This document shows positions 1 to 61,235 of a stretch of DNA of 64,000 nt, one piece after another. Made by a program: the position numbers and the translations under genes. The stretch is from positions 168,632-232,631 of the forward strand of contig JAHLKD010000087.1 of assembly GCA_025526935.1 (NCBI GenBank). Reading direction: 5' to 3'. This DNA comes from Cladochytrium replicatum (lineage: Eukaryota; Chytridiomycota; Chytridiomycetes; Cladochytriales; Cladochytriaceae). Every line of letters starts with the position of its first letter. Position 1 is the first letter of the stretch. Under the pieces are notes generated by a model. That model was not told the origin of the DNA and did no database searches. It saw only the letters and a list, made by a program, of their open reading frames with translations.

Positions 1-348
1 ATTATGGACTGGTGGAAGACCGTTGGAAGTGTGAACTTTCCAGCCCTAAGCCAGATGGCAATGGACAATTTAGGAATACCAGCAACAAGCGCTCCAGTCG
101 AACGAAAGTTTTCAGCCGGGGTTGATTTGGTACCTGCAACTCGCAACCGCCTTGCTCCAAGAACAATAAATGCGTTGATGTGCCGTCATGACTGGTTGCA
201 TCAATTGAGTGCTGAAGAACTGTTCAAAAATGATTCCCTAGTTTCAAAAAGTGATGTTAGTGAGGATTTTGTAAAGGTGCATAATTTTGGCGAGGATTTT
301 GATGTGGTATTAGAGTTGGAAGCAACTGATGATAACCCACTCTTTTAA
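1..348 (+). CDS. hAT transposase, C-terminal fragment (cut by window edge)
   Basis: This is the 3' end of a hAT-family transposase; the reading frame is open at base 1 and stops at 346-348. The residues around WWK, FPALS, IPATSAPVERKFSAG and NRLAP form the hATC dimerisation domain, which carries the last part of the RNase-H-like catalytic fold's helical insertion and mediates dimerisation. The usual FSAGG appears as FSAGV. The tail after the domain is acidic and short. The N-terminal BED finger and catalytic region lie outside the window, so intactness cannot be judged. The palindrome-repeat cluster starts just downstream, which may make it the subterminal region of this transposon. The first visible ATG at 4 is only internal. 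Confidence 0.82.
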   Translation: MMDWWKTVGSVNFPALSQMAMDNLGIPATSAPVERKFSAGVDLVPATRNRLAPRTINALMCRHDWLHQLSAEELFKNDSLVSKSDVSEDFVKVHNFGEDFDVVLELEATDDNPLF

Positions 349-369
349 ATATAAATTGTTGTTTAGACT

Positions 370-1090
370 GTCATCTGTTGAAGTACCGTCCAGGAGTTGA
401 GAAAGCGACCGCCTGGACAGAATCCTATTACAAGTAGTATTTGTAGAGAGGTTGGTTGTTCTTGATCGAGATCAGTGAAGTATCAGTGAAGTACCGTCAA
501 TGAGTTGAGAAAGTGTCCGGGTGGACAGAATCTTATTGCTAGTAACATTATTAGAGAGGTTAGCTGTACTTGATAGAGATCACTGAAGTACCGTCAATGA
601 GTTGAGAAAGTGTCCGGGTGGACAGAATCCTATTGCTAGTAACATTGATAGAGAGGTTAGTTGTATTGGGTAGAGATCACTGAAGTACCGTCAATGAGTT
701 GAGAAAGTGTCCGGGTGGACAGAATCCTATTGCTAGTAGTATTTGTAGAGATGTTAGCTGTACCTGATAGAGATTACTACCGTCAATGAGTTGAGAAAGT
801 GTCCGGGTGGACAGAAATCTGGGAGACTGAGTGTCACTGTGTCTGTCTGGGTAGAATAGGATTCTGTCCCCCCGGACACTTTCTCAACTCATTGACGGTA
901 CTTCAGTAATTTCTATCAGGTACAGCTAACCTCTCTATTAATGTTACTAGCAATAAGATTCTGTCCACCCGGACACTTTCTCAACTCATTGACGGTACTT
1001 CAGTGATCTCTATCAAGTACAGCTAACCTCTCTATCAATTTTACTAGCAATAAGATTCTGTCCACCCGGACAGAATCCTCTCTATCAATG
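370..1090. repeat. Inverted cluster of ~97-bp repeats carrying a hairpin 14-mer (cluster 1)
   Basis: Five forward units (14-mer at about 406 degenerate, then 514, 611, 708, 800) are followed by three reverse units (865, 962, 1059). The period is about 97 bp. The core TGTCCGGGTGGACA is a perfect 5-bp inverted repeat around GGGT. Each unit also contains GTACCGTCAATGAGTTGAGA and AGAGAGGTTAGCTGTACTTG. A non-repeated spacer at about 816-860 separates the two arms, so the block as a whole is a long imperfect palindrome. Spaced, oriented copies of a short palindrome are typical of subterminal transposase-binding sites of DNA transposons; that role is inference. Confidence 0.85.
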
Positions 1091-1239
1091 TTACTAGCCA
1101 GTTTCTTCCCTAGCTGCTTATTATTTTCAGATTGGGTAGAAAACTATAGTGTCAGGTAAGTATTATAGCATACATTCCTGTAACATTCCGGCTAAGAACA
1201 CCGGGCCAGTATCTTCCCACAACAAAGAGTACAAACACC

Positions 1240-2922
1240 ATGCCTCGAACTACAAAGAAGCGAGCGTTAAAACAATCCAGACCATCATCTGAAAGAGAAT
1301 CAAGTGCAGAACCTGTGACTGCACCTGAAACATCTCTGGCATCGGGTTCTGAAGTGGAAGAAGCAGAAGTTGGCCTTGATGTCAAATCGACAGATGTCAA
1401 ATCGACAGCTCCTTCAAAGAAACCGGCGCGACGTGGTACTAAAGGGGATGCTGACTATTTGCTCATCGACGGACTCTGTCCTGCTTCAGACATACGACTT
1501 TGGTATCGAAAATTCAAAGCGAGCGGCCACAGCTACGACTCGGAGGACTTCATCAGCAACTGTCAAACAAATCGTGATGAATGCGGCCCAAGATTTGTTC
1601 TTCAAGGGTTGATCGACCGACTTAACTCTGACAGCAAGCTAGTTCGTCAAGCCCTGAACGAAATTCACGATGAGTGCAGTGGACGAACGGAGTTCATAAC
1701 AGCAGCAAACGCCTATCGTATGGAGTGCTTGAAAAGCTCTTCCTTTCAGAAGGAAACAACATTTCTGGACTTTTACAGGCGGCAGGGACACAAGTACGGC
1801 ATTTACAGAGGAATGCCCGTCACTGCAAAGGTTGATGAGTTCCAAGCAACCATCAAACGAGCAGATGAGGACCGTGAAAGGACAAAACAGGTCCTCAAAC
1901 AGTCAGAACGACTGTTGAACATGACAAAAGATCTTGAAGAGACTGCAATGAACGAGAGAAGGACCCACATCGCAGCAGAAGTGCGAGAGAAGGCTCTCAT
2001 TGATGAATTGGGCAGGGCGGGTGCATTGATTCAGCACGGCGAGCACGAAGAGCTAGCAAGATTCAGGGAGATCACTGCTGCAATGGAAAGGGAGAAGCAG
2101 GCAACTTCCCAGGAGATTTCACAATGGAAATCACGTGTGACCGCCCTGGAGGGAGAGCTTGCTGCTCTGAAACGACAGGCTGGTCATTCAGAAGCTGCAG
2201 CACCTGCGGCGCCAACATCAACAGGCAGCCCAATAAGCATATCGTCGGCTATCAAGGGGATTGGTAGAATTCCAAAGGTACATCGAACCAGTTCTCCAAC
2301 GAGTTCCCTTGCATTGCTTAGCCTGCAGCAGCATCGTGGTACGGCTATCCTTTTGGTGAAAGAGGTCATCCAGGGTATCTGCTTCCAGATGCATAAGATC
2401 AATGAGGTTATTTATGACCTTAAATTGCTGTCTCTTCCACCATCAATCAAGTACGTCAATGTAAACTACGAAGTCCTCTCCCGAAATGAGTTTTTACGGC
2501 CCATATTTGTTGAATCAGACGACCGCTCAAGCCGAATATCAACTTCAAGTAGCAGTGCTCGGAGCAGCCTTACTCTTCTTAGGGTGCACATTTTGCTCGG
2601 AAACTGGATACGGCACAATAATTCGCTAAGTACGTCTGCCACTATCTATCGCATGTTCAGGGCATTAGTGGATGCTTATCCTTCTGAGTGGCTAAGGTTC
2701 TGGACGGCATACATCGGGCATCTTTCGTCCATAACGCTCCCTGAGGTGGATTGGAAACCTTGGAAGACAGGTTTAGCCAAGGATTTCATGCTTTCAAATG
2801 ACGACATTGATCGGTTCATCAGGACTGGGTTGGCTAAGGACATAACCAGTAGTGGATGGGACTCTGACGATATGAACCAGATACAGAAGCTGATTTGGGC
2901 TGTTCCACCTATCAACTTGTGA
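1240..2922 (+). CDS. Unrecognised 560-residue coiled-coil protein of a repeated element (copy 1, intact)
   Basis: I do not recognise this family. The protein begins MPRTTKKRALKQ, followed by a Ser/Glu-rich disordered stretch to about residue 75. A compact region follows at about 76-190 (DYLLIDGLCPASDIRLWY, then NSDSKLVRQALNEIHDEC). Residues about 195-320 are a strongly charged coiled coil (DEDRERTKQVLKQSERLL, then REITAAMEREKQATSQEI). A Ser/Pro linker leads to a helical C-terminal region from about 365 (KEVIQGICFQMHKINEVI) to 560. No transmembrane segment or catalytic motif is visible. A nearly identical but broken copy lies at 9008-10690 and degraded copies at 47.2-49.0 kb, so it is element-borne. 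It sits just downstream of a hairpin-repeat cluster. A DNA-binding accessory or structural protein of a transposon is possible but unproven. Confidence 0.7.
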   Translation: MPRTTKKRALKQSRPSSERESSAEPVTAPETSLASGSEVEEAEVGLDVKSTDVKSTAPSKKPARRGTKGDADYLLIDGLCPASDIRLWYRKFKASGHSYDSEDFISNCQTNRDECGPRFVLQGLIDRLNSDSKLVRQALNEIHDECSGRTEFITAANAYRMECLKSSSFQKETTFLDFYRRQGHKYGIYRGMPVTAKVDEFQATIKRADEDRERTKQVLKQSERLLNMTKDLEETAMNERRTHIAAEVREKALIDELGRAGALIQHGEHEELARFREITAAMEREKQATSQEISQWKSRVTALEGELAALKRQAGHSEAAAPAAPTSTGSPISISSAIKGIGRIPKVHRTSSPTSSLALLSLQQHRGTAILLVKEVIQGICFQMHKINEVIYDLKLLSLPPSIKYVNVNYEVLSRNEFLRPIFVESDDRSSRISTSSSSARSSLTLLRVHILLGNWIRHNNSLSTSATIYRMFRALVDAYPSEWLRFWTAYIGHLSSITLPEVDWKPWKTGLAKDFMLSNDDIDRFIRTGLAKDITSSGWDSDDMNQIQKLIWAVPPINL

Positions 2923-3049
2923 TTGTTCAGTGGAGTTTTGTTTCTTTTTACGATAGTGTTTCTAAAATACACACTGTCCACACAGACACAAGTGTTCATG
3001 TAAATATCCGTGGTCTAACTCAAAATTCAATCAATCCTCTCCTGGGCAG

Positions 3050-3225
3050 CAAAAACCCCGCGGGTCAGGGTCGGGTACGGGTTTCAACCACTTCGGGTCC
3101 GGGTATTCCCTTTGTACCCGTCAGTGACCCGGCGGGTCCCCAGACAAACACGACCCGACCCAAAGGGTTTGGTGCGGGTCGCCACTGAAACCCGGACCCG
3201 ACCCGGACCCGCCGAACCTTACTAG
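3050..3225. repeat. GGGTC-rich block with inverted ends (copy 1)
   Basis: This is a GC-rich block built from GGGTC/GACCC words. Its left part (about 3069-3087, GGGTCGGGTACGGGTTTCA) and right part (about 3186-3204) are inverted repeats with one mismatch. It follows the coiled-coil ORF in both tandem copies; a looser GGGTC-rich patch occurs at 57.0 kb. It could be the terminal region of the unit or a small non-autonomous hAT-like element. Confidence 0.65.
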
Positions 3226-3649
3226 TAACATTGATAGAGAGGTTAGCTGTACTTGATAGAGATCACTGAAGTACCGCCGTCAATGAGTTGAGAAAGTGTC
3301 CGGGTGGACAGAATCGTATTGCTAGTAACATTGATAGAGAGGTTAGTTGTATTGGGTAGAGATCACTGAAGTACCGCCGTCAATGAGTTGAGAAAGTGTC
3401 CGGGTGGACAGAAATCTGGGAGACTGAGTGTCACTGTGTCTGTCTGGGTAGAATAGGATTCTGTCCCCCCGGACACTTTCTCAACTCATTGACGGTACTT
3501 CAGTGATCTCTATCCAATACAGCTAACCTCTCTATCAATTTTACTAGCAATAAGATTCTGTCCACCCGGACAGAATCCTCTCTATCAATGTTAGTAGCCA
3601 TTTTCTTCCCTAGCTTATTATTATTTTCAGATCGGGTAGAAAACTATAG
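3226..3649. repeat. Palindrome-repeat cluster of the second tandem unit (cluster 2)
   Basis: This has the same architecture as cluster 1 but is shorter: two forward copies of TGTCCGGGTGGACA (3297, 3397), the same spacer, then two reverse copies (3462, 3559). It ends at the Copia insertion point; its continuation resumes at 8913. Bases 3636-3649 (AGAAAACTATAG) and 8913 onward (TATAGTGTCAGG) together reproduce the sequence found intact at about 1138-1160 upstream of the first coiled-coil ORF. Confidence 0.85.
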
Positions 3650-4089
3650 TGTTGAGTGTTGTTTCGTTCATAAAAGTTTTCCTTCTTTGTTGTTACTTTC
3701 AAAAAAGAAAAAGTTCGACTGAGGATAACAACAGGATTATTGTTGATCCTCAGAATCGAACTTGCGGCATGACGTTGAATGGCTTGTGGTTTAACCCACG
3801 ACGCTAGCTTTGTTGTTTTCCAAAACTTTTATTTTTGTTTCTATTTCGGCTTCATGTTCTTCGACGAAAACTTCAAAAGCCAGCGTTCCAGAAAATTCCG
3901 GATCACCAGCAAACTTGAAGGGGACTTACCAAAGGAGGAAGGAGAGCGCCGCTGCTGACGTGGCAAGGACAAATTAAGGGAGGCTTTGTTGGGAATGGGA
4001 GAACCTATAAAAGGTGTGAGTCTTAAGCTTCCAATATATTGAACAAGTACCTCTTATCTGATCTTACCTGCCTACGACAAAATTCTACA
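3650..4089 (+). repeat. 5' LTR of the Copia element
   Basis: Starts TGTTGAGTG and ends TTCTACA. A TATA box (TATAAAA, 4006-4012) lies about 80 bp before the LTR end and fits the Pol II promoter of the element. An internal inverted repeat around 3711-3761 (AGTTCGACTGAGGATAACAA and TTGTTGATCCTCAGAATCGA) could form a hairpin. Confidence 0.93.
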
Positions 4090-4097
4090 TGGTAGCA

Positions 4098-7000
4098 ATG
4101 GATTCTCGCTCTTCCCAACAACAACCGAAACCAACGGCGCTCATGACCCGCAAAGCTCAGGATGACAATCTCTTTGTCTTTGACGGAGAGAATTATCATA
4201 CCTGGCGACTCCGCATGGTGGCCTATCTCGAGGGCAAGGAGCTCTGGACAGTTGTCAACAAGGGACCAAATCCTGACCCACGACTGCGAACTGGTTTTGA
4301 CGAGACTAGCAATGCTGGCAAGGCCGAAATCGCCGCCCATGAAGAAAGTGTTCTGGATGATCGCAAGGCCTGATCCAAGATCATCGGGAAGCTCAGCAAC
4401 GTCGTACTTTCGCTTGTCACCAGCGCGAACACCGCAAAGGCGATGCTCGTAGCCCTCGATCAGATGTACCAGCGCCAGGCCAACGTCAACAGGATCACAC
4501 TCCGACGCGAGCTAATGGGGAAAAAGATGAGTACCGGGTCTGATCTTAAGACCCACATCTCGGAACTTGCCATGATTGTCCAGAGACTGACCGCTATTGG
4601 TGATTCCATTTCCCCAGACCAGCACATCATCTACCTGCTCAGCTCCCTCCCTCCGGAATTCGATACTGTGATTGCCACAATTGACGTTGAGGATGACACC
4701 CGCCGAAAGGACTACCAATATGTTGTCGGCCAACTTCTCGACGACGAAAGCAAACGACGAAGTCGCGAAAACAAGGAAGGTAACAGTCGAGATCAAGCTT
4801 ATCAGACCTCCGGCGGCAACCAACGACTTTGCTGGAACTGTAGCCAGCCAGGCCACTTCGCTGCCAACTGTCCTAACCAGACCTCGAGTTTGGGTGGTTC
4901 AAATCAAGGCTCTGGAAACGGACGAGGTGGTAGCGGAGGTCGAGGAGGTCGAGGTGGCGGACGAGGTACTGGAAGAGGCGGTCGAGGTCGAGGGAGCGGC
5001 GGTAGAGGACGCGGTCGAGGAAATGGAGGATCCAACCGCGGTGGCGGAAGAAGCGGTGGGCACGCAAACGAAGTAACGCTACCTGCGATTGCGTTCATGG
5101 CTTCGGAGAGATTCTCTGATCGATCTTCTAAGTGGTTCTTCGACACTGGGGCTTCGCACCACCTGTGCAACGATCAAAGGGCGTTCATCGAGTTGCGGAA
5201 GATTACTCCGATTGAGATTGACACCGCAAATGCTGGATCAGGACTCAAGGTTGTCGGGATCGGAAGAGTTCGATTGCTGGTATCAGTTGGAGGGCGGGAG
5301 AGGGAGGTGATCCTTAGTGAAGTGTACTTCGCTCCGAACCTGTCTGACAACTTGGTATCATGGAATCGACTCATAGAACACCGTCTCAAGCTCTACGGTG
5401 CTGGCAAGAAGATCCAGATCGGTCGCAACAATGAGATAGTCATGGAGTTCACACAAGATAAGACTTGCAACTTGTTTGCACTTGATCTGTCCCGATCGAT
5501 CGCCAGGGTGGCACGACGTAACGACGCAACAGCGGATCTCATCACTTGGCATAGAAGGTTCGGACATGCTGGATTCAATCGGATCGAGGAGGCCCAGAAG
5601 CTAGTTGAAGGAATGGAGATCGATGGAACTGAGAGGTTGGACCCTTGTCCGACCTGTGTGAAAGCTAAGTTGACCAGAACTAGCTTTCCACGGATCAAGG
5701 ACATTGACGTTAATTCCCATAGCACCCTCTACATCGATCTCCAAGGACCAATAAAGCCGCCCACCTACGGAGGTGCAATCTATGCCGCGGTCGCAGCACA
5801 CAGGAACTCTGGAGTCCTGGTTGTACGCCCCCTGAAAACCAAGGATCTGGCATTCGAGTTCAGTCAAGATGCCGTGCGAGAGATAGGACTCCTTACTGGC
5901 AAGGAGGTCCAAGTAGTTGTCACCGACAACGCAAAAGAGTTGATTTCACAAAAGTACGAGGCATGGGCACGGAAGCGCGGCATTCAACATCACACTACCA
6001 TGCCGTACACCCCGATGCAGAATGGACCTGTTGAGCGAGCAAATCGGACCCTCCAAAATCTTACACGAGCTATGTTAAATGAGGCAGGGGCAAACAGCAA
6101 GCTATGGGGCGAGGCGATGGTAACAGCATGTTACCTAAACAACCGGCTCCCGCGCAAGATCGGCAAGACGAGTATTACGCCATTGGAGGCCGCGACAGGC
6201 AGAAAACCAAACGTCAGCAAACTGCGGACCTGGGGATGCGTGGCATACGTGCACGATCCCCTCCCATCGGGCAAGCTAGCGGATCGAGCGATCCCAGGAA
6301 TCTTCGTTGGATACGAAGCATTCGGATTTCGTGTCTGGGACCCGAAAAGGAAAGTAATGATGAGAAGCAAGTCGGTGGTGTTTGATGAGAAGCATACCTG
6401 GAATGAGCGAGCCCTTACTGATGCCCTTGAACTGGTCTCTTTCGAAAACCTCCCCCAACACAGAGACTCGGCAAAACCGCTCAAACACACCGACTTGGCC
6501 AGCAACAACAGCAACAGCGATGACAGCAGCTATAGAGATAGCGACAGCGACGACAGTGAGGGGGAGGTCGAGACCAATTCAAGGGACAAGGACACGGAAT
6601 CGGAGGACGACGAAGTAGAGGTGCAAGATCCTGGGCTATTGAAGCAGAAACCCAGCACTAGTAAGATTCCTGTGCGCCGAGGAAGCCGAGAGAAAAGGCC
6701 AGTCGAACGGTATGGCTTTGAGAAGGTGAAACAAGTCGGATCGGCATGAGTAGCCTCGAAAAGGAAGGTGATCTTGCACACGGAACCAAGGACGTATGAG
6801 GAAGCCATGGCGAGCCTGGAGAAGGACGACTGGACGGCTGCCATGCAATAGGAGATCCTTGCGCATCGCGAGAACTCAACGTGGCGACTTGTACCGAGGC
6901 CTGCAGGGCGAAACATCATCAAGTCAGGCTGGGTATATCGCTACAAGACGAACGCCGAGGGGAAGATGGTTCGGCACAAGGCGCGGTTCATTGCGAAAGG

Positions 7001-8351
7001 ATATTCGCAACGCGAGGGAGAGGACTTTGATGAGACGTTTTCTCCGGTGGCTCGAAAACAAACTGTTCGAGTTGTGTTGGCGCTCGTGGTGCAGGAACGG
7101 ATGGTGATGCGCCAGTACGACATCAAAACAGCGTTCCTGAATGCGCGCATCATCGACCGCGAACTCTACTACGAGCAGCCAGAGGGATTCATTGAACCGG
7201 GCAAGGAAGATTGGGTCTGCTTAGCTATTCGTGCGCTTTATGGCCTCAAGCAGCCGCCTCGCGAGTGGAATAGTCTCTTCGACGATTTCCTAGTGACCGT
7301 CATCAAGCTGAAACGTTCCGATAGCGATGTCTGCCTCTACTACCGTCGAGAGGGATCGTCGCTCACGCTTGTCGTCATCTACGTGGACGATATTCTGGTG
7401 GCGTCGACCGATGAGGACGAGGTGAATCGAATCGAGGAGTTGATGAAGCGACGATTTGAGGTCAGCGAGGCAGGATCCCCAAAGTATTATCTCGGCTGGG
7501 AAATTGACTACGATAAGGACGGCGGCAAGCTCACCATCTCTCAAGCGCAGTACATCAGAATGTCGGCGAAGAAATGTAAGATCAGATTCGAGCGGAAAAC
7601 ACCAGTTGAAGCTGGCGTTACAATCTTCAAGGATATGGGAGAGGAGATCGAGGTCGAGCGAAATGAGATTAGCTATCGCACAATCGTCGGTCAGCTCCTA
7701 TACGCCGCGACGAGCACACGACCCGATATCTCGTTTGCCACTGGCACCGTTGCGCGTTATCAAAACGCACCTCAGTACACTCATTGGTGCGCGGCGGAAC
7801 GGGTGCTCGCCTACCTGCTGCACACTCCCTCAATTGGAATCCGCTATGGACGACGAGATCGCCTTGAGATTGTATGCTATGCGGACGCGGATCACGCCGG
7901 AGATCCTGACAACAAAAAGTCGACTACGGGATATGCTATCTTGATCAATGGGGGAGCTGTTGCCTGGGGGAGCAAGCTTCAAACATCAGCGGCGAGTTTG
8001 ACAGCAGAAGCGGAGTACGTTGCACTATCCACAGCTAGCGACGAACTCGTTTGGGTAAAGCACATGCTTGAAGAACTTGGATATTCCTTTGCTGCTCCGC
8101 CTGTAGTCCACTGCGACAATACCGCTGCAATTGCTGGTGCCCGCAATCCCGGATTCAAGTCCCGGCATATCGCTTTGCGATATCACATTGTGCGTGGCCG
8201 CATTCGATCTGGGGACATTGACGTGCAGTATATCCCCACAGAGGATCAGGTGGCAGACATCTTCACCAAGCGTCTCGCACGACGTCGACATGAGAAACTG
8301 ATGGGTCTACTTGGGATGGTAGATGCAATGAAAGAGATGAGAGAAAATTAG
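4098..8351 (+). pseudogene. Copia Gag-Pol polyprotein with three in-frame stops
   Basis: One frame runs from ATG 4098 (an in-frame ATG also straddles the LTR end at 4089) to the stop at 8351, interrupted by TGA 4371, TGA 6747 and TAG 6849. Visible parts in order: Gag with DGENYHTWRLRMVAYLEGKE; a CCHC knuckle CWNCSQPGHFAANC near 4830; an Arg/Gly-rich stretch at about 4915-5060; aspartic protease WFFDTGASHHLC near 5135; GAG-pre-integrase WHRRFGHAGF; integrase with YIDLQGP and VTDNAKEL; a hydrophilic acidic linker; reverse transcriptase with YVDD near 7381; and RNase H (YADADHAGD and TAEAEYVALS). No frameshift is needed. With stops in Gag and between integrase and RT, this copy should be unable to make a full polyprotein unless the stops are read through. 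Confidence 0.93.
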
Positions 8352-8472
8352 GTTTTGTTTCTCGAAGGACACACCAATTATGTTTGCATTCCTTCTGGCT
8401 TCTATGTTTGTTTTTCAATTGTTATTTCTTTTCAACTTTCAAAGGAAGAACTTTTGTTCAGAAACGGGGGAG

Positions 8473-8912
8473 TGTTGAGTGTTGTTTCGTTCATAAAAGT
8501 TTTCCTTCTTTGTTGTTACTTTCAAAAAAGAAAAAGTTCGACTGAGGATAACAACAGGATTATTGTTGATCCTCAGAATCGAACTTGCGGCATGACGTTG
8601 AATGGCTTGTGGTTTAACCCACGACGCTAGCTTTGTTGTTTTCCAAAACTTTTATTTTTGTTTCTATTTCGGCTTCATGTTCTTCGACGAAAACTTCAAA
8701 AGCCAGCGTTCCAGAAAATTCCGGATCACCAGCAAACTTGAAGGGGACTTACCAAAGGAGGAAGGAGAGCGCCGCTGCTGACGTGGCAAGGACAAATTAA
8801 GGGAGGCTTTGTTGGGAATGGGAGAACCTATAAAAGGTGTGAGTCTTAAGCTTCCAATATATTGAACAAGTACCTCTTATCTGATCTTACCTGCCTACGA
8901 CAAAATTCTACA
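8473..8912 (+). repeat. 3' LTR of the Copia element
   Basis: 440 bp, matching the 5' LTR base for base by reading. It is preceded by the polypurine tract GAAACGGGGGAG and followed directly by the TATAG target duplicate. Its TATA box is at 8829-8835. Confidence 0.93.
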
Positions 8913-9007
8913 TATAGTGTCAGGGAAGTATTTTAGCATACATTCCTGTAACATTCCGGCTAAGAACACCAGGCCCAACCCTTCCCACGACAAACAGTAC
9001 AAACACC

Positions 9008-10690
9008 ATCCCTCGAACTACAAAGAAGCGACCGTTGAAACAATCCAGACCATCATCTGAAAGAGAATCAAGTGCAGAACCTGTGACTGCACCTGAAACA
9101 TCTCTGGCATCGGGTTCTGAAGTGGAAGAAGCAGAAGTTGGCCTTGATGTCAAATCGACAGATGTCAAATCGACAGCTCCTTCAAAGAAACCGGCGCGAC
9201 GTGGTACTAAAGGGGATGCTGACTATTTGCTCATCGACGGACTCTGTCCTGCTTCAGACATACGACTTTGGTATCAAAAATTCAAAGCAAGTGGCCACAG
9301 CTACGACTCGGAGGACTTCATCAGCAACTGTCAAACAAATCGTGATGAATGCGGCCCAAGATTTGTTCTTCAAGGGTTGATCAACCGACTTAACTCTGAC
9401 AGCAAGCTAGTTCGTCAAGCCCTGAACGAAATTCACGATGAATGAAGTGGACGAACGGAGTTCATAACAGCAGCAAACGCCTATCGTATGGAGTGCTTGA
9501 AAAGCTCTTCCTTTCAGAAGGAAACAACATTTCTGGACTTTTACAGGCGGCAGGGACACAAGTATGGCATTTGCAGAGGAATGCCTGTCACTGCAAAGGT
9601 TGACGAGTTCCAAGCGACCATCAAACGAGCAGATGAGGACCGTGAAAGGACAAAACAGGTCCTCAAACAATCAGAACGACTGTTGAACATGACAAAAGAT
9701 CTTGAAGAGACTGCAATGAATGAGAGAAGGACCCGCATCGCAGCAGAAGTGCGAGAGAAGGCTCTCATTGATGAATTGGGCAGGGCGGGTGCATTGATTC
9801 AGCACGGCGAGCACGAAGAGCTAGCAAGATTCAGGGAGATCACTGCTGCAATGGAAAGGGAGAAGCAGGCAACTTCCCAGGAGATTTCACAATGGAAATC
9901 ACGTGTGACCGCCCTGGAGGGAGAGCTTGCTGCTCTGAAACGACAGGCTGGTCATTCAGAAGCTGCAGCACCTGCGGTGCCAACATCAACAGGCAGCCCA
10001 ATAAGCATATCGTCGGCTATCAAGGGGATTGGTAGAATTCCAAAAGTACATCGAACCAGTTCTCCAACGAGTTCCCTTGCATTGCTTAGCCTGCAGCAGC
10101 ACCGTCGTACGGCTATCCTTTTGGTGAAAGAGGTCATCCAGGGTATCTGCTTCCAGATGCATAAGATCAATGAGGTTATTTATGACCTTAAATTGCCGTC
10201 TCTTCCACCATCAATCAAGTACGTCAATGTAAACTACGAAGTCCTCTCCCAAAATGAGTTTTTACGGCCCATATTTGTTGAATCAGATGATCGCTCAAGC
10301 CGAATATCAACTTCAAGTAGCAGTGCTCGGAGCAGCCTTACTCTTCTTAGGGTGCACATTTTGCTCGGAAACTGGATACGGCACAATAATTTGCTAAGTA
10401 CGTCTGCCACTATCTATCGCATGTTCAGGGCATTAGTGGATGCTTATCCTTCTGAGTGGCTAAGGTTCTGGACGGCATACATCGGGCATCTTTCGTCCAT
10501 AACGCTCCCTGAGGTGGATTGGAAACCTTGGAAGACAGGTTTAGCCAAGGATTTCATGCTTTCAAATGACGACATTGATCGGTTCATCAGGACTGGGTTG
10601 GCGAAGGACGTAACCAGTGGTGGATGGGACTCTGACGATATGAACCAGATACAGAAGCTGATTTGGGCTGTTCCACCTATCAACTTGTGA
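9008..10690 (+). pseudogene. Second copy of the 560-residue coiled-coil ORF, broken
   Basis: This copy is nearly identical along its whole length to 1240-2922. The start codon is ATC (9008-9010) where copy 1 has ATG, and a TGA at 9443-9445 replaces a Cys codon. The rest is open in frame to the shared stop at 10688-10690, and an internal ATG at 9488 leaves a 400-residue C-terminal ORF containing the whole coiled coil. The few substitutions imply recent duplication. The upstream part was separated from its repeat cluster by the Copia insertion. Confidence 0.9.
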
Positions 10691-10819
10691 TTGTTCAGTG
10701 GAGTTTTGTTTCTTTTTACGATAGTGTTTCTAAAATACACACTGTCCACACAGACACAAAGTGTTCATGTAAATATCCGTGGTCTAACTCAAAGTTCAAT
10801 CAATCCTCTCCTGGGCAGC

Positions 10820-10990
10820 AAAACCCAGCGGGTCAGGGTCGGGTACGGGTTTCAACCACTTCGGGTCCGGGTATTCCCTTTGTACCCATCAGTGACCCAG
10901 CGGGTCCCCAGACAAACACGACCCGACCCAAAGGGTTTGGTGCGGGTCGCCACTGAAACCCGGACCCGACCCGGACCCTCCGAACCTTAA
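10820..10990. repeat. GGGTC-rich block with inverted ends (copy 2)
   Basis: Matches the block at 3050-3225 closely and occupies the same position after the ORF. After it the sequence passes straight into LINE sequence at about 10991, whereas after copy 1 it passes into repeat cluster 2. Confidence 0.65.
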
Positions 10991-12235
10991 CTGCAGACTT
11001 TCAATTTTCACATGACATTAGAAATATTAGTTCTATTGGGCGTAACATTGCAGAGTTCCTTCAACTTTGCCTTTGGATTTTCAGATTTGCTTGCTTGGCT
11101 TGTTACTCATCATGTTGATTTGTTAGGTTTAAGAGAAACTCATCACTTAACTTTAGACAGTGTTTCTTCAGCGTATTTGTTGTTTGATTCTCGTCCTCTC
11201 CACCAGACAATCCTTTGGCATCTGGAGTTGTTCTTATTTACCCTCATCATTGCAGTGCTCATCAATTTAGGTTGATTACATCAGTTCCTTCTGGGTTTGG
11301 TTTGTGGTTTAGGTTTCGTCAGGTTGTGATTGGTGGCTTTTATTTTCCCCACGTTGGACTGCAGAAGATTGTTTGGGTGCATTATCTGATTTTCCTCAAT
11401 TTGTTCATGGTCAAACCCTGAATGTCAAGCCTTCATTTCGTTATTTGGGTTGCTTTTCGGAGATACTGGATTTGATGTTTCACTGACTGTTTCCCATCGA
11501 CTTGCTAAAGCGCATGCAGCTTCTTTACTTTGCTTTCTTTTTCAAGATGTTTCGTTCTCATTCTTGGGTTGTGGTTCGTCATTTGTTTCTGTCTTTTATT
11601 CGACCTACGCTTGAATTTGGTTAATATGTTATTCTTCCCTCTGTTGCTGTTTGCAAACCAGTCAGACTTTTATTCACCAAAGTTTGTGCCGATTTCTTCA
11701 CCAATTAGCTTCATCTGCCTGTGGTGCTATAGCTGCTAGCTTTGCTCCCCTTGCATCTGCCCACCCTCATGCAATAGCAATTACTCCTCCATGCTTCCCT
11801 ATTTTGTCAATCTTGAGGCTTCTGCAGTATCGTCTTTGACGTTTGTTTTATCACCCCCGCAAGCAGTGTTGTCGCTGCCGTGCTGCAGCTCTCTCTAGAT
11901 CTCATGTTTCAGAATGTTTACGTCTTGATCTATTGTTGCCTATTCCTATTTGCAGCTTCCGCTTGATGTTGCAATTGATAGCCTTTGTCCACTTTGCATT
12001 GTCAACCCACAAATCTTGCACGGTGGTAACTCGTTTTTTCGCTGTCTTCACAAGATTTGGCTTCACTGTATCAGTCTGCCATTAGAAATTTCTCATCTCC
12101 CTTTTGGCCCTGCATTTGTGGATCTTTAACGTTTTCTTTTTTCATTATTTATTACTCACCTTTTTTGGCACCTTGTGTGCTATATAAATAAATATTGTAA
12201 AAATATAATAAATAAAATACCTTGTTTATTATATT
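10991..12235 (+). mobile_element. Internally deleted LINE (non-LTR retrotransposon) copy
   Basis: This is a plus-strand relic of the LINE family seen at 57.8-64 kb. It starts in the last part of ORF1 (FSHDIRNISSIGRN), enters the AP endonuclease start (DLLAWLVTHHVDLLGLRETH), and reaches GALSDFPQF near 11380. It then jumps to the post-RT region (VKPSFRYLGCF, then VVVRHLFLSFIRPTLEFG), so the reverse-transcriptase core is missing. Near 11865 it has the C-terminal Cys/His motif CCRCRAAALSRSHVSEC. It ends with the family's 3' UTR and an A-rich tail. Many stops and frameshifts make it non-functional. Confidence 0.85.
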
Positions 12236-24839: not shown

Positions 24840-25420
24840 GCAAGCACCAATCAAAAACGGCGACCACCAAAAGCAAGCTCTAAGGAAACGGCTGTGATGC
24901 TTTGTTTTCTTCCTTTCCGGGTCTTTCTCTCCTTCTGTACCTTCCACCGCAATCTTCTGTACTGGTGCATTATGCGTATTTCTTCGCACACCCTGCCTTT
25001 CCTTGTTTGCGTTCTATGGGATTCTTTTCGCTTTCCTTATTTGTTGTCTTCTTCCCGATCTTGGGTTGGAGGCTCCTCGATCTATACTCATCTCTATCCA
25101 TCCTAAAAATAATAAACGCCTTCATTCCAATACACCACGACTGCAAGGCAGCACCTGTGCAGAAATAGACAAGATTCTTAGTGGTCGCATCGCTTTGTAC
25201 CTCTCCAGTGAAGCAAGGGACTCGACCATTGGAGGCATCGAATCGGTAGCTGCTCTAAACTTCCAACAATCGAGACGGATCTCAACACAGTGGGCCCACA
25301 CAACTCCTTGTGTCGTCGGCTACAGGACCTGGCATCGTGGTCTGCGTACGGCTCTAGATGGGCGATTCAATATCTAGTTCGTGTATCCCAAGAGCTGCGA
25401 TCACACACAAGGGGGTCGAG
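24840..25420 (+). repeat. Dispersed repeat A (left copy)
   Basis: About 580 bp that reappears in the same orientation at about 56128-56720, diverged but colinear. Shared words include TTTGTTTTCTTCCTT, TTTTCACTTTCCTTATTTG-like, GGCAATACCTGTGCA-like, GTACCTCTCCAGTGAAGCA and CCCAAGAGCTGCGATC. A pyrimidine-rich first half is followed by a second half with coding-like texture (YLSSEA). It could be a gene fragment with its promoter or an unknown element. Confidence 0.75.
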
Positions 25421-29924: not shown

Positions 29925-31579
29925 GGATAAAAGTAATAATGGTAATAATAATCATGGCAATTGCCCAATGGAGGACATGAGGGAAGTACTGAATGACAAA
30001 AAAAGTGAACCACCCGCAACACAGCATGTTAACACCACTACCGCAAACGACAACATATTACCCGAAATGGAATACATACTGTACAAGGTTGGAAGAGAAA
30101 ATGTGACGCAACACGCTGCTCAACGCTCACACACGAAACATCGAGGGCTTCATAGTCTGCAGGGAGGTCGCAAGCTGATTGAACAGGTCTGAAAGTTGGA
30201 CTTCCTGAGTCGCATGGTAGAATTTGGCACATTGATCGGCGGATGCGCACGGGTGTTACTGCTTCATTGGGTCAGCCATGTTCCGAACGACGTGAGAAGA
30301 CAAGCGACCAATCAAATTGGCATGGAAGTGAGTAGCAATTCTAAATGAAGGACGTGAGTCACATGAGCTGGGACCAGTAGCCGGAAAGACCCACCCTTTC
30401 GTTGTGGAGCTTCGACCGAGAATAGAGAGCTGGGTTGAAGGGAGGCGATCTTCACCGTCCGAAAGAAATATCAGAACAGGACAACTTTGAAATTCGCTGT
30501 TAGTTCACATGGCGCCAAATTTACGAAAAGATCACAATTACCGGCAGCCGTCCCAGTTCCGAAGCATGACATCGTGTGCGGTCTGAATCGCGTTTGCAAT
30601 GCCTGTTCCGCCTTCGGCTCGATACTGTAACATTAACGGGAGAAGCTGCGACGGATCAGTGACACTACTACTATTTTTGAAAACAACTTGCGAACTGTCC
30701 TTGAAAAGTACAAGAGACACTTTCTCTGTGGGGAGCATACTAGGAACGAACGGCAGCAGATCCAGCGCGAGCGTGACGAGCTTGAATAAACCGTTCAAAT
30801 GATGCACCGAGGCGATTTCGGTGAGCACGCGAAATCGGTGCAGAGACAGGTGTCCCCTGAGGAACCATGTCAGCCTCACGCATTGATCCCGATGCATCAA
30901 TGACACATACAATATGAAATGCCATCGCCAGTAAGCACGATTCGTGCATGAGAAGTGGTGTCCGTCAGATGACAAATAGTCAACACGGTTTGGAGGGGGA
31001 GCTCGATGATCCAAGCGTTTATGGAACAAAGGTTGCGTGCAGAAAGAGCGAGTTCCTCCATGAGTCTGATGATCGTCGCCGGGACATTCGGCATCATACA
31101 ACGTAAACTCTTGCTGGTCACTTTGCGAGTACGGATCCTCAAATCCACTCTTCGCCGTATTCGGCTTGGGTGATGTAATCTTTCGGCTTGTTGGGCTTCG
31201 GGCATGATCTTCCGGTTAATATGGAGACAGCCTCCTGTTCGCAAAAATGCATAGCATCTACATTGATAGAGTAGTCGATGTGACGGTGCAGTCCTTGATC
31301 GTTGCAAAACATGTGACAGAGGTATGGCCTCGCAGAATCACCAGCACTGAACTTAAAGCCAGCAATCTCAAAGTCATCGTTCTCACACGAAAATTTGGCG
31401 TTGAGCGCATTTCCATGAGACACCATGTGGAGCTGCTGACGATGATTTGCTGGATGGGTGCAGTAGTATCCACAGTAAGGACATTGAGCCTTACAATAGT
31501 GGAAAACATCCTGTTGTGTACTATGAACGTGAGATCCTTGGTGTGCAAATTGGTTCGCAGGAATCATCCGAGCGCACAT
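29925..31579 (-). pseudogene. VWA-domain protein gene, decayed (left copy B)
   Basis: Minus-strand pieces follow one order across frameshifts. A Cys/His-rich region (CPYCGYYCTHPANHRQQLHM, then GDSARPYLCHMFCNDQGLHR) leads into FEDPYSQSDQQEF, YDAECPGDDH and YLSSDGHHFSC. A von Willebrand A domain follows, with the MIDAS start VCVIDASGSM, the segment VSLVLFKDSSQVVF and the motif GGTGIANAIQTAHDVM, then ILIFLSDGED beyond it. The arrangement matches the large VWA proteins of fungi with a DGHHFSC segment just before VWA. At least three frame changes (near 31138, about 30945 and about 30800) and stops show it is broken. The segment 29925-30550 recurs inverted at 49285-49940. Confidence 0.75.
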
Positions 31580-31580
31580 A

Positions 31581-34140
31581 CTATTGCAGTTTCACAATGT
31601 GATGATCATTATCAGCAACACTGATTGGTTCGGCCACGTCGTTATTCTGCCCAACTCTCACAGAGTCAGCAATTTGTATTACTTCCATATCGACGGGTAC
31701 TGAATATTCCAGTGATTGCGATTGTGACCTCATCTCACTTGCAACAAAGTTATCATTTGAGTCTGAGGTTGTGGGATCAATGTCGCTGTCAGTAGCCTTT
31801 GCAAGAGCAAGCGGAGTTGTAGGTTCAGTGTCGACGTCAGCAGATCGGTCATTGGCCTTGCTGACCGCCGTTTCAACTCCACCCCCTTCAGCTTCCGTGC
31901 TCACTTCCAGGCGTTTCATTTTGTCTTCGATCTAGCCATTTTCATCCGCATCGTCTCTATCCACTGATTCTTTACGCTTGAGGTTATACGTACGTCCACT
32001 TTCTGGACTGTCCCAGTTAGCTTTGACCGCTACGCGGTAGGTTATCTTATAAAATAATTAGCTAACGCTCGACTACCGTTCGTGGCTTCATTACAGAAAT
32101 TTTCTTAAAAATATGATTGTTAACATGGATGTAAATTTTGCCAGAAATGAAACCTTACGTGTATTTTTGTTCGATAAGAAGGTCGAATATTCGGCCACCA
32201 AAGTCAAGCTTATTTGGTTAGCTCTCATTTTACCAATCCGAGATGTTTTTCAATTCTGCTTTCTCCCAATCATTAACTGCCTTTTCTTCCATTGGTCGAA
32301 AAAACTTTTGTCCTGCGGCAATATTTCATCCACGAACTGGCGAACGATTTGGAGCCAACATGAGGGCCAACCTGCAACCCACAGACCTCATTGCTAAATT
32401 TTCCCGAACAAATTTCCCTACATCTTCCATTGGTTTTGGTAAACACTGGCACAACCATGTGGCGGGTATTATGCTCGAATGTGAGAAACGCCTGGTGAGT
32501 TGAGCTTTGAATTGCTTGTGGAGCAATATAAATAACATCAGCTAGAAGAGGAGAACGATCGCGCTGCGATGGAGCAAGACGAGGGGACCGAGCGACTCCA
32601 CGAAGCGTTCCGTGATGGAGCTGATTCTGGAATGGTAGGAATCGCATTTGACAACACTGGTGGCCAAGGAATCAACGGCGAAGAGTTAAACTCAACGGAT
32701 GCATTACGGCAGCACGCATCTCGTCAGCACTGGCACGTTCCTGGTCTTTACCACCTTGTCGAAATCTACAAGGAACGCACAGCCAATGGGCTAGGTAACA
32801 ATGAGTGTAAATTTTCTTTTTTTTAAAAATGACGCTGAAGAATTGATTTCGCAGGTGAAAAGTTCATGGTTGTCCCGGAGGACTTTGGTCAGATTTGCAA
32901 CGAGATTGCCAAGGACTCCGAGCCATCGTTCACAAAGATCTATTATGCAAAGTTGGATGGCTTTCCCGTAAAGACTATCGGTGTCTATGGAAGCCGGGCC
33001 ATGATAGCGAAGCTTCTTTTTCAGATCGGCGCTGTGGAGGAACAAATGTAAGTGGAGGTTGTAGTTGCGGTGTGCATTTCTCATCAATTTCCAAAGTAAT
33101 AGATCGCTGATGCTAGACACAATGCTTTCAAGACTTTACTTTCATCGTCTGAGGAAATATCATTCTGTTGATTCCGATCGTGTTTCTCGTTATCCACCTC
33201 CCTGAAGAATCCGCGTTCTCCAATATAGCAGAAACCGATACTCGTCGCAACATGATGAACTTACAGCGATACCTTTTCAAATTGACGGAGGAGCAGATCT
33301 GCCTCTTATCATCTGATGATCTCGATAAGTTTAATTGGGACATGCATATTCGGACCAGCCAGGCTGGTTCTGATCACATCGATGACGAAGAGGAGGATTC
33401 TGCGATCGATGGATGACTATTTCTTTGAATATGCGGTGCAGAAGGTGCAACAAGAGGATTTCCAGATCTTCCCGGGATATAGGGTTAATCTCGAGAAACC
33501 ATTACTAGGCAAAACATTGATTCTCTGCCTTCTTCGCAGCTCGTTGATGAAAGATTGATACACAGTGATCATGCTCCATCGCAGCGTGATCGTTCTCATC
33601 TTGCTCCATCACAGCGGGATCGTTCTGATCTTGCTCCATAGTCAACACAGGTTGTGCGACGGAGCTGGCTCCTTCATTGTCCGTGTCAACCTACACATGC
33701 GTTTCGGCCTGCACAGAATTTTCGTTGCTGTCACGCAATTCCATCATATTGGGCTGATTCTCAGAAATCAGGATTCCGGACTGATCGATACCACAGTCTG
33801 ACTGAGACTCGATCCGCGACATTTGGTTGTGATACGGGCGTTGAGCTCGCTCGTTGATCTTCCGAAGATCCAGAGCCGCAGCTTTTGACATCCCAATTGT
33901 CGTCAGCGTCAGGTCCCACAACAATTGGTTGTAAACATTCAGTGGATTTGTCTTGATCTCATGCAAACCGCCACCTACCAAACTCGTTCTCCGTATCCTC
34001 TGATTCCTCCATGTCCAACTAGTCTCTGGTAACTCGATTCTGTGGCATTGTGTGGGTTTGCCCCGCCATCCAGATAGTTTGTGCAGCTAGTCCGTGTGGC
34101 TTCGGTGGCGGATGCTGGCTGGTCAATCACACCCCTCTGG
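31581..34140 (-). repeat. Duplicated segment C, left copy (middle part flipped)
   Basis: Homologous to 43080-45600. Part P3 (31581-32560, for example MKRLEVSTEAEGGGVE and SSTHQAFLTFEH) and part P1 (about 33572-34010, for example MVGGGLHEIKTNPLN) are on the minus strand. Part P2 (about 32556-33572, for example SRQHWHVPGLYHLVEIYKER, EKFMVVPEDFGQIC, LFKLTEEQICLLSSDDLDKF) is on the plus strand. In the right copy P1-P2-P3 are colinear on plus. Coding texture with intron-like gaps (near 32798-32853 and 33047-33095) suggests a decayed multi-exon gene; I do not recognise its domains. Confidence 0.8.
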
Positions 34141-42890: not shown

Positions 42891-43079
42891 CAGACAGCAA
42901 GGCTGTCATCAACGAGGAGATGCGTTTAACATTTGACGATCGCTGAACGAAATTTTTGCAAATCACACCATTTTTTGTTCCTAAACGCATTGAACCACAG
43001 GTGTCAGCCAGCATCCGCCACCGTCGCCACACGAACTATCTGCGCAAACTATCTGGAGAGGAACAAACTCACACTGCCA

Positions 43080-45600
43080 CAGAATTGAGTTTACTAGTTT
43101 GACATGGAGGAATCAGAGCAAACTCACAATGAGCTTGGTAGGTGGTGGTTTTCATGGAATCAAGAAAACTCAACTGAATGTTCACAACCAGTTGTTTATC
43201 CGACCTGAGGCTGACGACCATTGGGATGTCAAAAGCTGCGGCTCTGGATCTTCGGAAGATCAGCGAGCGAGCTCAACGCCTGTATCCCAACCAAGCATCG
43301 TGGCATCGGGTATAGCGCCAGAGGAGGAGAATCGAGTCGAGGAGCTCGTTTCGAGGGATGTCAACGTTGCTACTGTGACTGGGATCGATAGCGTCTCAGT
43401 CGGACCGTGGTATCGATCAGTCCGGAATCCTGATTTCTGAGAATCAGCCCAATATGATGGATCTGCGTGGCAGCAATGAAAATTCTGTGCAGGCAGAAAC
43501 GCCGGAGGAGGTTGACACAGACAATAGCCAGCTCCGTCGCACAACCTATGGTGACTATGGAGCAAGATGAGAACGATCCCGCTGCGATGGAGCAAGATGA
43601 GAACGATCACGCTGCGATCGAGCAAGTGGAGAACGATCGAGCTGCGATGGAGCAAGATGAGGACGGACCGAACGACTCCACGAAGCGTTCCTTGATGGAG
43701 CCGATCCTTGAGGATGCCGATGACATTTATAGATGACCTTGGAGCCCGAATCGATATCGATATGGTGATGAGGACTTTCACAGACGGCGATTGGTGGAAT
43801 GGTAGGGATCGCATCGGTACAACGGATGCACTCCGCCAGCGCTCGTCTCGTCAGCACTGGCACGTTCCTGGTCTTTATCACAGTGTCAAAATCTACAAGG
43901 AACGCACACCTAATGGGCTAGCTAACAATGATTGTCATCTTCTTTTCTTTTTACAATGACATGAAGAATTGATTTCCCAGTTGAGAAGTTCATGGTTGTC
44001 CCGGAGGACTTTTGTTCAGGTTTGCAACGAGATTGCCAAGGACTCAGCACTATCATTCAGAAAGATCGATTACACAAAGTTGGATGGCTTTCCTGTAAAA
44101 GACTATCAGGGTCTATATAAGCCGAGCAATGATAGCTCAGCTTATTTTTCAGATCGGCGCAGCGGAGGAACAAATGTAAGTGGAAGTTGTGGTTGCAGTG
44201 TGGATTTCATATCACTTTCCAAAGTGCCGAAAAGATTGCTGATGCTAGAGACAATGCTTTCAAGGCGGGGCTTTACTTCATTGTCTAAGGAAACATCATT
44301 CTGTTGATTCTGCAATCGTGTTTCTCATTATCCACCTCCCTGAAGAATCTGCATTCTCCAATATAGCACAAACCAGTATTGTCGCAACATGGTGAACTTA
44401 CAGCGGCACCTTTTCAAATTGACTGAGGAGCAGATCTGCCTCTTCTCATCTGAGGATCTCGATAAGTTTAATTGGGACATGCGTATTTGGACCAGTCAGG
44501 CTGGTGCTGATCACATCGATGACAAGGAGGAGGATACTACGATTGACGACTGCTTCTTTGAATACGCGGTGCAGATGGTGCAACAAATGCAAGAGGATTT
44601 CAAGACCTTGACGGGATAGGGTAAATCACACGAGAAATCATTACTAGGCAAAATATTGATTTTGTGCCTTCTTCACAGCTTGTTGATGAAAGATTGAGAC
44701 ACACTGATCATCTAGCAGATGATACGTATATTGGTCCACAAGCAGTTCAAAGCTCAACTCACCAGGCGTTTCTCACTTTTGAGCATATTCCCCGCTGCAT
44801 GGTTGAGCCAGTGCATACTAAAACCTTCCATTCAATGGAAGATGCGGGGAAATTTGTTCGGAGGAAATTGAGCAATGAGCATATTAGGTGGCAGGTTGGC
44901 TCTCAAGTTGGCTCCAAATCGGTTTGCCAGATTGTGGATGAAGTATTGCTGCAGGGCAAAAGTGTTCTCAACCAACGGAACCAGGAAGAAAACACAGTTA
45001 ATGATTGGGAAAACGTAGAATTGAAAAAATATCCCGTATCGGCAAAACGCGAGCGAACCAAATTTGCTTGACTGTTGTGGCTGAATATTCGATCTTCTTA
45101 TCGAACAAAAATACCTGTAAGGTTTCTTTTTGACAAAATTTACATCAATAATAATTATCGTATTTTCAGGAATTTTTCAATGGCTATGAAACCCCTTCCT
45201 GAAAACAACTGGGACATTCCAGAAAGTGGACAAATGTATAAACTCAATCATAGGGAATCAGTGGATAGAGACAATTCGGATGAATATGGCCAGATGGAAG
45301 ACAAAATGAAACGCCTGGAAGTGAACACAGAAGCTGAAGGGGGTGGAGTTGAAAAGGTGGACAGCAAGGCCAATGACGGATCTGCTGACATCGACACTGA
45401 ACCTACAACTCCGCTTGCTCTTGCAAAGCTACTGACATCGGCAGAAATAAAAATTGCAGACTCTGTGAGAGTTGGGCAGAAAAACCACCCACTGTGGCCG
45501 AACCAAGCAGTGTTGCTGATAATGATAATCACATTGACAATAACGCATTGAGCCTCGGTTCGATCACTGAAGTTATGGAATCGCTGGGTGATCTCTGTTT
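43080..45600 (+). repeat. Duplicated segment C, right copy (colinear)
   Basis: Holds P1 (43099-43560), P2 (43560-44700) and P3 (44700-45600) in order on the plus strand. P1/P2 meet at a tandem 36-bp repeat (43555-43670) encoding variants of AAMEQDENDH. P2 has SRQHWHVPGLYHSVKIYKER, EKFMVVPEDF and LFKLTEEQICLFSSEDLDKF. P3 has SSTHQAFLTFEHIPR and MKRLEVNTEAEGGGVE. Frames are broken in several places (for example after EKFMVVPEDF). The homologous copy is at 31581-34140 and lies inverted, apart from P2. Confidence 0.8.
43555..43670 (+). repeat. Tandem 36-bp coding repeat
   Basis: About three units of GATGGAGCAAGATGAGAACG-type sequence, each encoding AAMEQDENDP, AAMEQDENDH or AAIEQVENDR-like 12-residue repeats. 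Shortened pieces of it lie at both edges of the flipped middle part in the left copy (32556-32600 and 33576-33650). Confidence 0.85.
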
Positions 45601-47179: not shown

Positions 47180-48034
47180 TGCCAACACTGAACACAAAGC
47201 TGATAAAACACCATGGGGAGTCAGGACTTAGTATGTAGTCAACTGCTTGAAAAGTTATTTTTTTCAGAAGGAAACAACATTCTTGGACTTTTACAGGTGG
47301 CAGGGACACAAGTAAGGTATTTACAGAAGAATGCCAGTGACTGCAAGGTTGGCAAGTTTCCAGAGACGATCAAACAAGCCAATGAGGACCACGAAGGACG
47401 AAACAGGCTCTCAAACTGTCAGAACAACTTTTGACAATGACAAAATATTTTGATGAGACTGCAAAGAATGAGAGAAGGACCCGAATCGCACCAGAATGTG
47501 AAAGAAGGCACCCATTGATCAGTTGGGGCCGGTGCATTGATTCAGCACAGTGAGCAGGAAGAGCTTGCAAGATTCCAAGATTGTTACTGCAATGGAAAGA
47601 GGGAAGAAGGCTGCGTGCGAGGAGATTGGCATATGGAAAGCACGTGCAACTGCCGTGGAAGAAGAGCTTGCCATTCTGAACAGCACCAACATGAACAGGC
47701 AGCCCAAGAACCATCTTGTCAGCTATTAACGCAATTGGCTGAATTCCCAAGGTTGATGCAACCAGTTCTCTTGCATTGGTAAGCCTGCAGCAGCCCCGAA
47801 GTACGGCTATCCTTTTGGTGAGGGAGGTCGTCTAGGGAATCTGCTTCCGGATGCATAAGATCAATGAAGTAATACATGATCTCAAATTGCCATCGTTACC
47901 ACCATCGATCAAGTTGGTCAATGTCAACAACAAAAAACTCTCGAAAAATGAGTTCCTACCACCCATCTTCGTTGAATCTGCCAACCGCAACAAGCCAAAC
48001 ATCTAGTAGTAGTGCTCAGAGCGATCTCACTCTT
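47180..48034 (+). pseudogene. Degraded plus-strand copy of the coiled-coil element ORF
   Basis: Homologous to the middle and end of the 560-residue ORF, with many frameshifts. Pieces correspond to SFQKETTFLDFYRRQGHK (here read in another frame near 47255-47310), the coiled coil near 47540-47680, STAILLV at about 47800, the LPSLPPSIKLVNVN stretch at about 47890 and FLPPIFVES at about 47955, then SSSAQSDLTLL. It ends at about 48034 against an inverted copy. Confidence 0.8.
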
Positions 48035-49270: not shown

Positions 49271-49284
49271 TGTTTTAGCTTCCT

Positions 49285-49940
49285 TCGGAACTGGGATGAC
49301 AGCCGGTAATTGTGATCTTTTCGTAAATTTGGCGCCATGTGAACTAACAGCGAATTTTAAAGTTGTCCTGTTGTGATATTTCTTTCGGACGGTGAAGATC
49401 GCCTCCCTTAGACCCAGCTCTCTATGCTTGGTCGACGCTCCACAACAAAAGGGTCGGTCTTTCTGGCTACTGGTCCCAGTTCATGTGACTCATGGACTTC
49501 ATTCAGAATTGCTACTCACTTCCATGCCAATTTGATTGGTCGCTTGTCTTCTCACGTCGTTCAGAACATGGCTGACCCAATGAAGCAGTAACACCCTTGC
49601 GCATCCGCCGATCAATTTGCCAAATTCTACCATGCGACTCAGGATGTCCAACTTTCAGACCTGTTGAATCAGCTTGCGACCTCCCTGTCCCTGCAGACTA
49701 CGAAGCCCTTGATGTTTTGTGTGTGAGTGTTGAGCAGGGCGTCGCGTCTCCATTTTACTTCCAACCATGTATAATATGTACACCATTTGGGTATGTTGTA
49801 GTTTGTGGTAGTGGTGTAATATGCTGTGCCGCAATTGGTTCAAGTTGTTTTGTCATTGAGTGGTTTGCTAGCGTACTCCATTGGGCATTTGCCATGATTA
49901 CTATTATTACTGTTACAGTATTACTATTGGATGTGGTTTT
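49285..49940 (+). pseudogene. VWA-domain gene, 3' part only (right copy B')
   Basis: Matches 29925-30550 in inverted orientation with little divergence. It starts exactly at the end of the hairpin cluster with the codons for RNWD, continues through the region that follows the VWA start (LIFLSDGED equivalent disrupted) and the post-VWA segment (FYHATQDVQLSDLLNQLATS), and ends in A/T-rich sequence. The VWA domain proper and everything upstream are missing, apparently displaced by the coiled-coil element. Confidence 0.75.
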
Positions 49941-60832: not shown

Positions 60833-60837
<5 letters not shown>

Positions 60838-60912
<75 letters not shown>

Positions 60913-61229: not shown

Positions 61230-61235
61230 TTTTTT

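Follow-up and report, generated by a model that had tools for sequence, protein, structure and literature searches.

The probable right half of a two-gene hAT-superfamily transposon with an intergenic array of inverted half-sites in Cladochytrium replicatum

Which kind of mobile element joins a dense array of palindrome-like sites to a protein of no recognisable family is the question raised by the left end of a 64,000-nucleotide stretch of the Cladochytrium replicatum genome (GenBank assembly GCA_025526935.1, contig JAHLKD010000087.1, positions 168,632 to 232,631; this whole stretch is called the window here). A first-pass annotation had seen there two head-to-tail units, each with hairpin motifs, a 560-codon open reading frame (ORF) and a GGGTC block, and had proposed an undescribed kind of element in tandem; we rejected that proposal in favour of a hAT right half with a nested insertion. 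Our preferred reading, to which we assign a probability of about 0.7, is that the locus holds the right half of a two-gene hAT-superfamily DNA transposon whose sites are bound by a dimeric protein that the element encodes. In the proposed order, a transposase gene would be followed by an intergenic site array, a second gene encoding a coiled-coil protein, a GGGTC-rich subterminal block and the right terminus (Table 1).

The assignment to hAT comes from the first 348 bp of the window, in which the open frame matched the hAT C-terminal dimerisation domain (Pfam PF05699, Dimer_Tnp_hAT; residues 1–66, E 1.4e-17) as well as the Hermes transposase (E 3.8e-08). This C-terminus lies just left of the start that the first-pass annotation had given its element, and was missed there. 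The TAA of the transposase stands about 30 bp upstream of the first, degenerate array repeat at 379; the interval contains no recognisable terminus and is hardly long enough to accommodate a separate hAT end. From this arrangement we infer that transposase, array, second gene and right end make up one element.

On the other side, the two units cease to resemble each other after an identical CCTTA (3221 in unit 1, 10989 in unit 2). The GGGTC block most probably forms the right end of the element, of the TAAGG type. A 17-base probe taken from the start of the outward-read terminus recovered the ends of units 1 and 2 at 0 and 1 mismatches, and 100 block shuffles yielded 0 matches with one mismatch or fewer; two further matches, at 36543 and 60434, have five mismatches, as many as chance would give. 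On the right-hand side of unit 2, sequence related to a long interspersed nuclear element (LINE) was found by BLAST from 11001, and a weak gapped alignment carried it back to about 10990. The gapped alignment also extends a few bases into the element by chance, and the flank is consistent with an end at 10989, leaving the exact base unfixed. YARNG is a consensus for hAT terminal inverted repeats, but the single paper in which we met it uses it for P elements, and we gave it no weight. Published Hermes insertions follow the consensus nTnnnnAn, according to excerpts of the account (PMC2803484), and the 8-bp flank fits it at two of the three ends (CTAGTAAC at unit 1 and GTGATCAC at a fourth locus, one side alone being visible); the unit 2 flank, ACTGCAGA, does not fit, and CTGCAGAC, one base further on, does.

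Table 1. Features of the element and related loci, in window coordinates.
Feature	Position	Strand	Remarks
3' end of hAT transposase gene	1–348	+	115 codons, stop TAA 346–348; remainder left of window
Array of ~97-bp repeats, unit 1	379–1101		first part in + orientation, second part inverted; most repeats with 22-bp site
14-mer starts, unit 1	406 (degenerate), 514, 611, 708, 800, 865, 962, 1059		
Second gene, unit 1, 560 aa	1240–2922	+	open ORF; Ser/Glu-rich N-terminus, helical region, helical C-terminus
Isolated variant site TGTCCACACAGACA between ORF and right end	2975–2988	-	without GAAAG flank; unit 2 counterpart 10743–10756
GGGTC block and probable right terminus, unit 1	3056–3221	+	ends CCCGCCGAACCTTA
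CTAGTAAC, array sequence directly after unit 1 end	3222–3229		candidate 8-bp target duplication, fits nTnnnnAn, one side visible
Remaining array of unit 2	3222–3649		14-mers start 3297, 3397, 3462, 3559
Copia long terminal repeat (LTR) retrotransposon inside unit 2	3650–8912	+	LTRs ~3650–4089 and ~8473–8912
Second gene, unit 2, broken	9008–10690	+	start codon lost (ATG to ATC); codon 146 is an in-frame TGA
GGGTC block and probable right terminus, unit 2	10823–10989	+	then LINE-related sequence
Third locus, two decayed second-gene fragments	48037–48421; 47244–48037	-; +	opposite orientations
Third locus, four sites of one orientation	49005–49282	-	14-mers start 49005, 49077, 49165, 49242
Fourth locus	56987–57340	-	two sites, degenerate GGGTC block, probable right terminus ending CCCGCTGATCCTTA, then GTGATCAC

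Comparison of the window with itself bore out the two near-identical units of array, 560-codon ORF and GGGTC block (1145–3221 and 8913–10989, 97.8% identity over 2,078 bp; arrays at 952–1152 and 3452–3652, 95.5%), with the correction that unit 2 is interrupted by a Copia retrotransposon, has the shorter array and carries a broken ORF. The head-to-tail order and the high identity would suit a segmental tandem duplication, an origin we nevertheless regard as unlikely. The array of unit 2 begins at the 3221/3222 boundary. The junction falls on the same base at which the right-side similarity of unit 2 to unit 1 stops, and a CCGCCG variant found in both forward repeats of unit 2 is absent from all repeats of unit 1. 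Both points favour insertion over tandem duplication. The octamer CTAGTAAC that follows unit 1 is itself part of the array repeat that continues as unit 2. The locus is best read as a nested insertion: unit 1 would have landed in the array of unit 2, the older of the two copies, and the tandem look would be false.

The Copia element, which separates the array of unit 2 from its second gene, has LTRs that are 100% identical (BLAST, window self-comparison), encodes gag, integrase and reverse transcriptase domains recognised by Pfam, and is flanked by a TATAG target duplication read from the sequence (3645–3649 and 8913–8917); its insertion was apparently recent. Its coding frame is broken between an ORF ending at 6749 and one starting at 6966. 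Unit 2 itself appears to sit in one copy of a LINE, of which the right flank alone is visible. This LINE, encoding endonuclease and reverse transcriptase, is present in several copies (10990–12174 and about 57860–64000).

The product of the second gene met no Pfam family at the cut-off, and its eight matches among solved structures all had E-values of 0.75 or worse and were taken as chance, in keeping with the earlier description of a protein without a recognisable family. Neither the 3 pattern stretches in viral contigs nor the 31 in prokaryote genome contigs yielded a confirmed relative, absence from collections of this kind saying little. The best-modelled part in a single-sequence AlphaFold prediction is a coiled-coil-like pair of long helices at residues 195–316, in line with the coiled coil noted in the first pass. 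Between the two copies, 15 of 29 changes are synonymous, compared to a neutral mean of 8.9 (P 0.014; transition-weighted model, 20,000 simulations), a modest excess measured on a decayed copy 2. Differences from two fragments at a third locus fall on codon positions 1/2/3 as 16/9/23 and 38/38/70 (total 54/47/93), counts that are not independent because the fragments overlap in the gene. Judged from these substitutions, the second gene is under coding constraint. Immediately before the start codon (1147–1239 versus 8914–9007), the units differ at 10 of 93 aligned positions, compared to 29 of 1,680 within the ORF.

The array is real, as had been claimed: 14-mers of the TGTCCGGGTGGACA type with up to three mismatches occur 21 times in the window, compared to a shuffle mean of 5.1 and a largest value of 11 (100 shuffles), and all but two of the 21 (those at 11756 and 46390) fall within the element loci. 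A looser scan for half-sites with up to two mismatches gave 46 matches against a chance mean of 23 and a maximum of 36 (50 shuffles), a chance level so high that many matches outside the element must be put down to chance. Perfect half-site pairs (n = 12) are restricted to unit 1 (seven, beside one degenerate 14-mer), unit 2 (four) and the third locus (one).

Aligning the sites of unit 1 (seven), the third locus (four) and the fourth (two), to the exclusion of the degenerate copy at 406, the four sites of unit 2 and both isolated sites, revealed a conserved core in columns -5 to 16, corresponding to a 22-bp site, GAAAG-TGTCC-N4-GGACA-GAA. Core identity is 0.83 between unit 1 and the third locus, 0.86 between unit 1 and the fourth, and 0.77 between the third and the fourth. 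Left and right flanks of unit 1 are at chance level relative to the third (0.22, 0.25) and fourth (0.23, 0.21) loci, that is 21–25%; between third and fourth they reach 0.44 and 0.43. The half-sites are inverted but lack complementarity in the outer GAAAG and GAA, a combination more in keeping with a site for a dimer than with a folded hairpin. A structural hairpin was tried as the conserved feature and rejected, only a 5-bp stem being common to the sites, the outer flanks failing to pair and the third locus having no excess folding.

At the third locus, the fragment matching residues 163–295 lies on the same strand as the sites and begins about 580 bp after them; the linkage of sites and second gene thus predates the two units. 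The N-terminal part is excepted: by BLAST, the Ser/Glu-rich stretch between sites and fragment does not match the N-terminus of the 560-residue ORF. The order that the first-pass annotation had reported here thus survives in the four sites and the ORF fragments, while the fragments are broken and oppositely oriented, and the Ser/Glu-rich stretch is an impression only; its broader claim of a mobile element in which array and ORF recur together is upheld by the units and this locus. Beside a VWA-like ORF there is an 88% identical duplicated stretch (29943–30564 and 49283–49906), the second copy of which abuts the third array at 49283.

The fourth locus, described earlier as keeping the DNA motifs only, indeed has two sites and a degenerate GGGTC block. 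The diverged block at 56987 is probably an end like those of the units. Aligned with the block of unit 1, each cut at its presumed end beforehand, it reaches a score of 60, where 300 base shuffles average 22.9 and never exceed 35; such shuffles correct incompletely for the common GGGTC bias. A left end was looked for at this locus and not found. An array motif standing without the ORF, here at 57.0–57.3 kb, had been named in advance as telling against the linkage of the two; the same pattern would also be expected of a derivative with an internal deletion. Between a broken LINE and these sites, a 0.5-kb stretch with an acidic, Ser-rich frame (57340–57830, minus strand) may hold the missing part of the element.

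Several explanations compete for the role of the array. In unit 1 it contains a long inverted repeat (514–731 and 855–1072, 94% complementary), and the RNA fold of 361–1140 is extreme (minimum free energy -470.3 kcal/mol, z -31.6, 20 shuffles), so that its transcript might fold into a long double-stranded RNA, serving either as a source for RNA interference or as a stop to transcription between the two genes. We hold this to be very improbable, given that the third-locus array, with its four sites in one orientation, folds no better than shuffles (z 0.22), that folding at the fourth locus is modest (z -3.43), and that the 22-bp core is conserved and the long pairing is not; both loci being decayed or partial, the folding comparison is a limited test. 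Under our preferred reading, a dimeric element-encoded protein would instead bind the TGTCC-N4-GGACA sites, the second-gene product being a somewhat more likely candidate than the transposase. That the second-gene protein is the binder we put at slightly less than even odds. The hAT transposase is a rival binder, which would recognise the sites as subterminal repeats and leave the second gene as a passenger or in another role. This alternative is a real though lesser possibility: excerpts of published work report that the BED domains of Hermes bind subterminal repeats, a quasi-palindrome included (PMC10368747), and that DNA-binding domains encoded by or derived from hAT elements have motif matches in subterminal regions (PMC8097297), and the fourth locus keeps sites by its probable terminus, no second gene having been found there. 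Speaking for the second gene, the array lies about 2 kb from the right end and beside that gene (in unit 1, and in unit 2 once Copia is subtracted), and the third locus retains sites together with second-gene fragments, with no transposase remnant detected.

The last observation, and the fact that the hAT portion is seen once, would also suit a separate element, comprising array, second gene and GGGTC end, that adjoins a broken hAT by chance. We find such a coincidence hard to credit, considering the mere 30 bp or so between the hAT stop and the first repeat, where no terminus is recognisable, and the fit of the 8-base flank to the hAT (Hermes) consensus at two of the three GGGTC ends.

A number of observations weigh against a two-gene hAT element with protein-bound sites. 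The junction of hAT and array is seen once, and the claim that transposase and second gene belong to a single element rests on it. Within the window we found no left end, catalytic domain or full-length copy, and no two-sided target duplication; the remainder of the transposase, in which an RNase H-like catalytic domain with DDE residues and a BED zinc finger would be expected, lies to the left. No hAT remnant was detected by tblastn beside the third array, where an unrelated repeat starts at 49283. The third and fourth loci form a more closely related pair (flanks 43–44% identical; BLAST 76–80%), so that conservation of the site rests on two lineages and not three. At the fourth locus, BLAST found no second-gene match and the left part is unexplained; its terminus at 56987 has 4 of 17 mismatches, a level at which shuffles average 1.6 matches, and is therefore not significant alone. 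A better 17-base match (3 mismatches) occurs at 56362 on the plus strand, without a GGGTC continuation and inside a repeat common to 24900–25405. Lastly, the N-terminal region of the second-gene protein is modelled with low confidence, the mean predicted local distance difference test score (pLDDT) of the single-sequence AlphaFold models being 56.8 for the 132-residue N-terminal part and 45.8 for the whole protein.

The window has eukaryotic gene content, with a glutaminyl-tRNA synthetase, a septin, an F-box protein and a mitochondrial carrier recognised. Searches for structured-RNA families and tRNAs gave 0 matches. A large rearranged duplication (31595–34121 and 43005–45536) has pieces in both orientations, the main ones 78–90% identical, and 30-bp tandem repeats are present in both of its parts. 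In viral contigs, a collection in which absence says little, no relative of the hAT end was confirmed among 5 pattern stretches, and exact scans found neither the site nor the terminus.

Elements of the hAT superfamily are usually pictured as single-gene elements. The element described here resembles Hermes and Ac in its C-terminal dimerisation domain and in 8-bp flanks that fit the Hermes consensus at two of three ends, and differs from them by its second gene, which is under constraint, and by an intergenic array with multiple sites. The transposase end is thus of a known kind, and the second gene with its own site array would be the new feature. We know of no hAT element with such a second gene, and none appeared among the literature matches listed, judged by their titles and the openings of their abstracts, which is weak evidence because Repbase and most subscription papers lay outside the coverage. 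In maize, TnpA of the CACTA element Spm/En is an accessory DNA-binding protein with repeated subterminal sites near both ends, and the comparison with TnpA drawn in the first-pass annotation is a reasonable analogy, in that our element would likewise pair an accessory DNA-binding protein with repeated sites. Spm/En has CACTA termini and sites by both ends; our element has a TAAGG-type end and sites mainly between genes, and no CACTA terminus was found, the right ends being TAAGG.

The VANDAL elements of Arabidopsis belong to the Mutator superfamily and encode VANC, an anti-silencing protein. Excerpts of the published accounts describe an extra element gene and fast-diverging non-coding repeats around a short motif, the repeats being very unlike from one related element to the next (PMC5735166; PMC10398659), which for VANC21 is the 9-mer YAGTATTAY in one orientation (PMC5735166). 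As far as these excerpts go, the likeness lies in an extra gene accompanied by non-coding repeats built on a short motif, and the difference in the hAT affiliation of our element and in its inverted half-sites, compared to the one-orientation 9-mer of VANC21. By Pfam, and with no VANC sequence compared directly, we did not find a VANC-related protein in a Mutator-type element here, the 560-residue protein matching no family at the cut-off and the neighbouring transposase end being hAT. By analogy with VANC and TnpA, binding would control expression or silencing of the element, or assist its transposition. That a hAT lineage independently evolved a sequence-specific accessory protein together with an inverted-half-site array, for element-specific anti-silencing or activation, is a speculative extension that we consider rather unlikely as it stands. 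If true, it would mean that accessory, possibly anti-silencing, systems arose in a third superfamily, and the 22-bp site and the named protein make the idea of such an accessory system directly testable.

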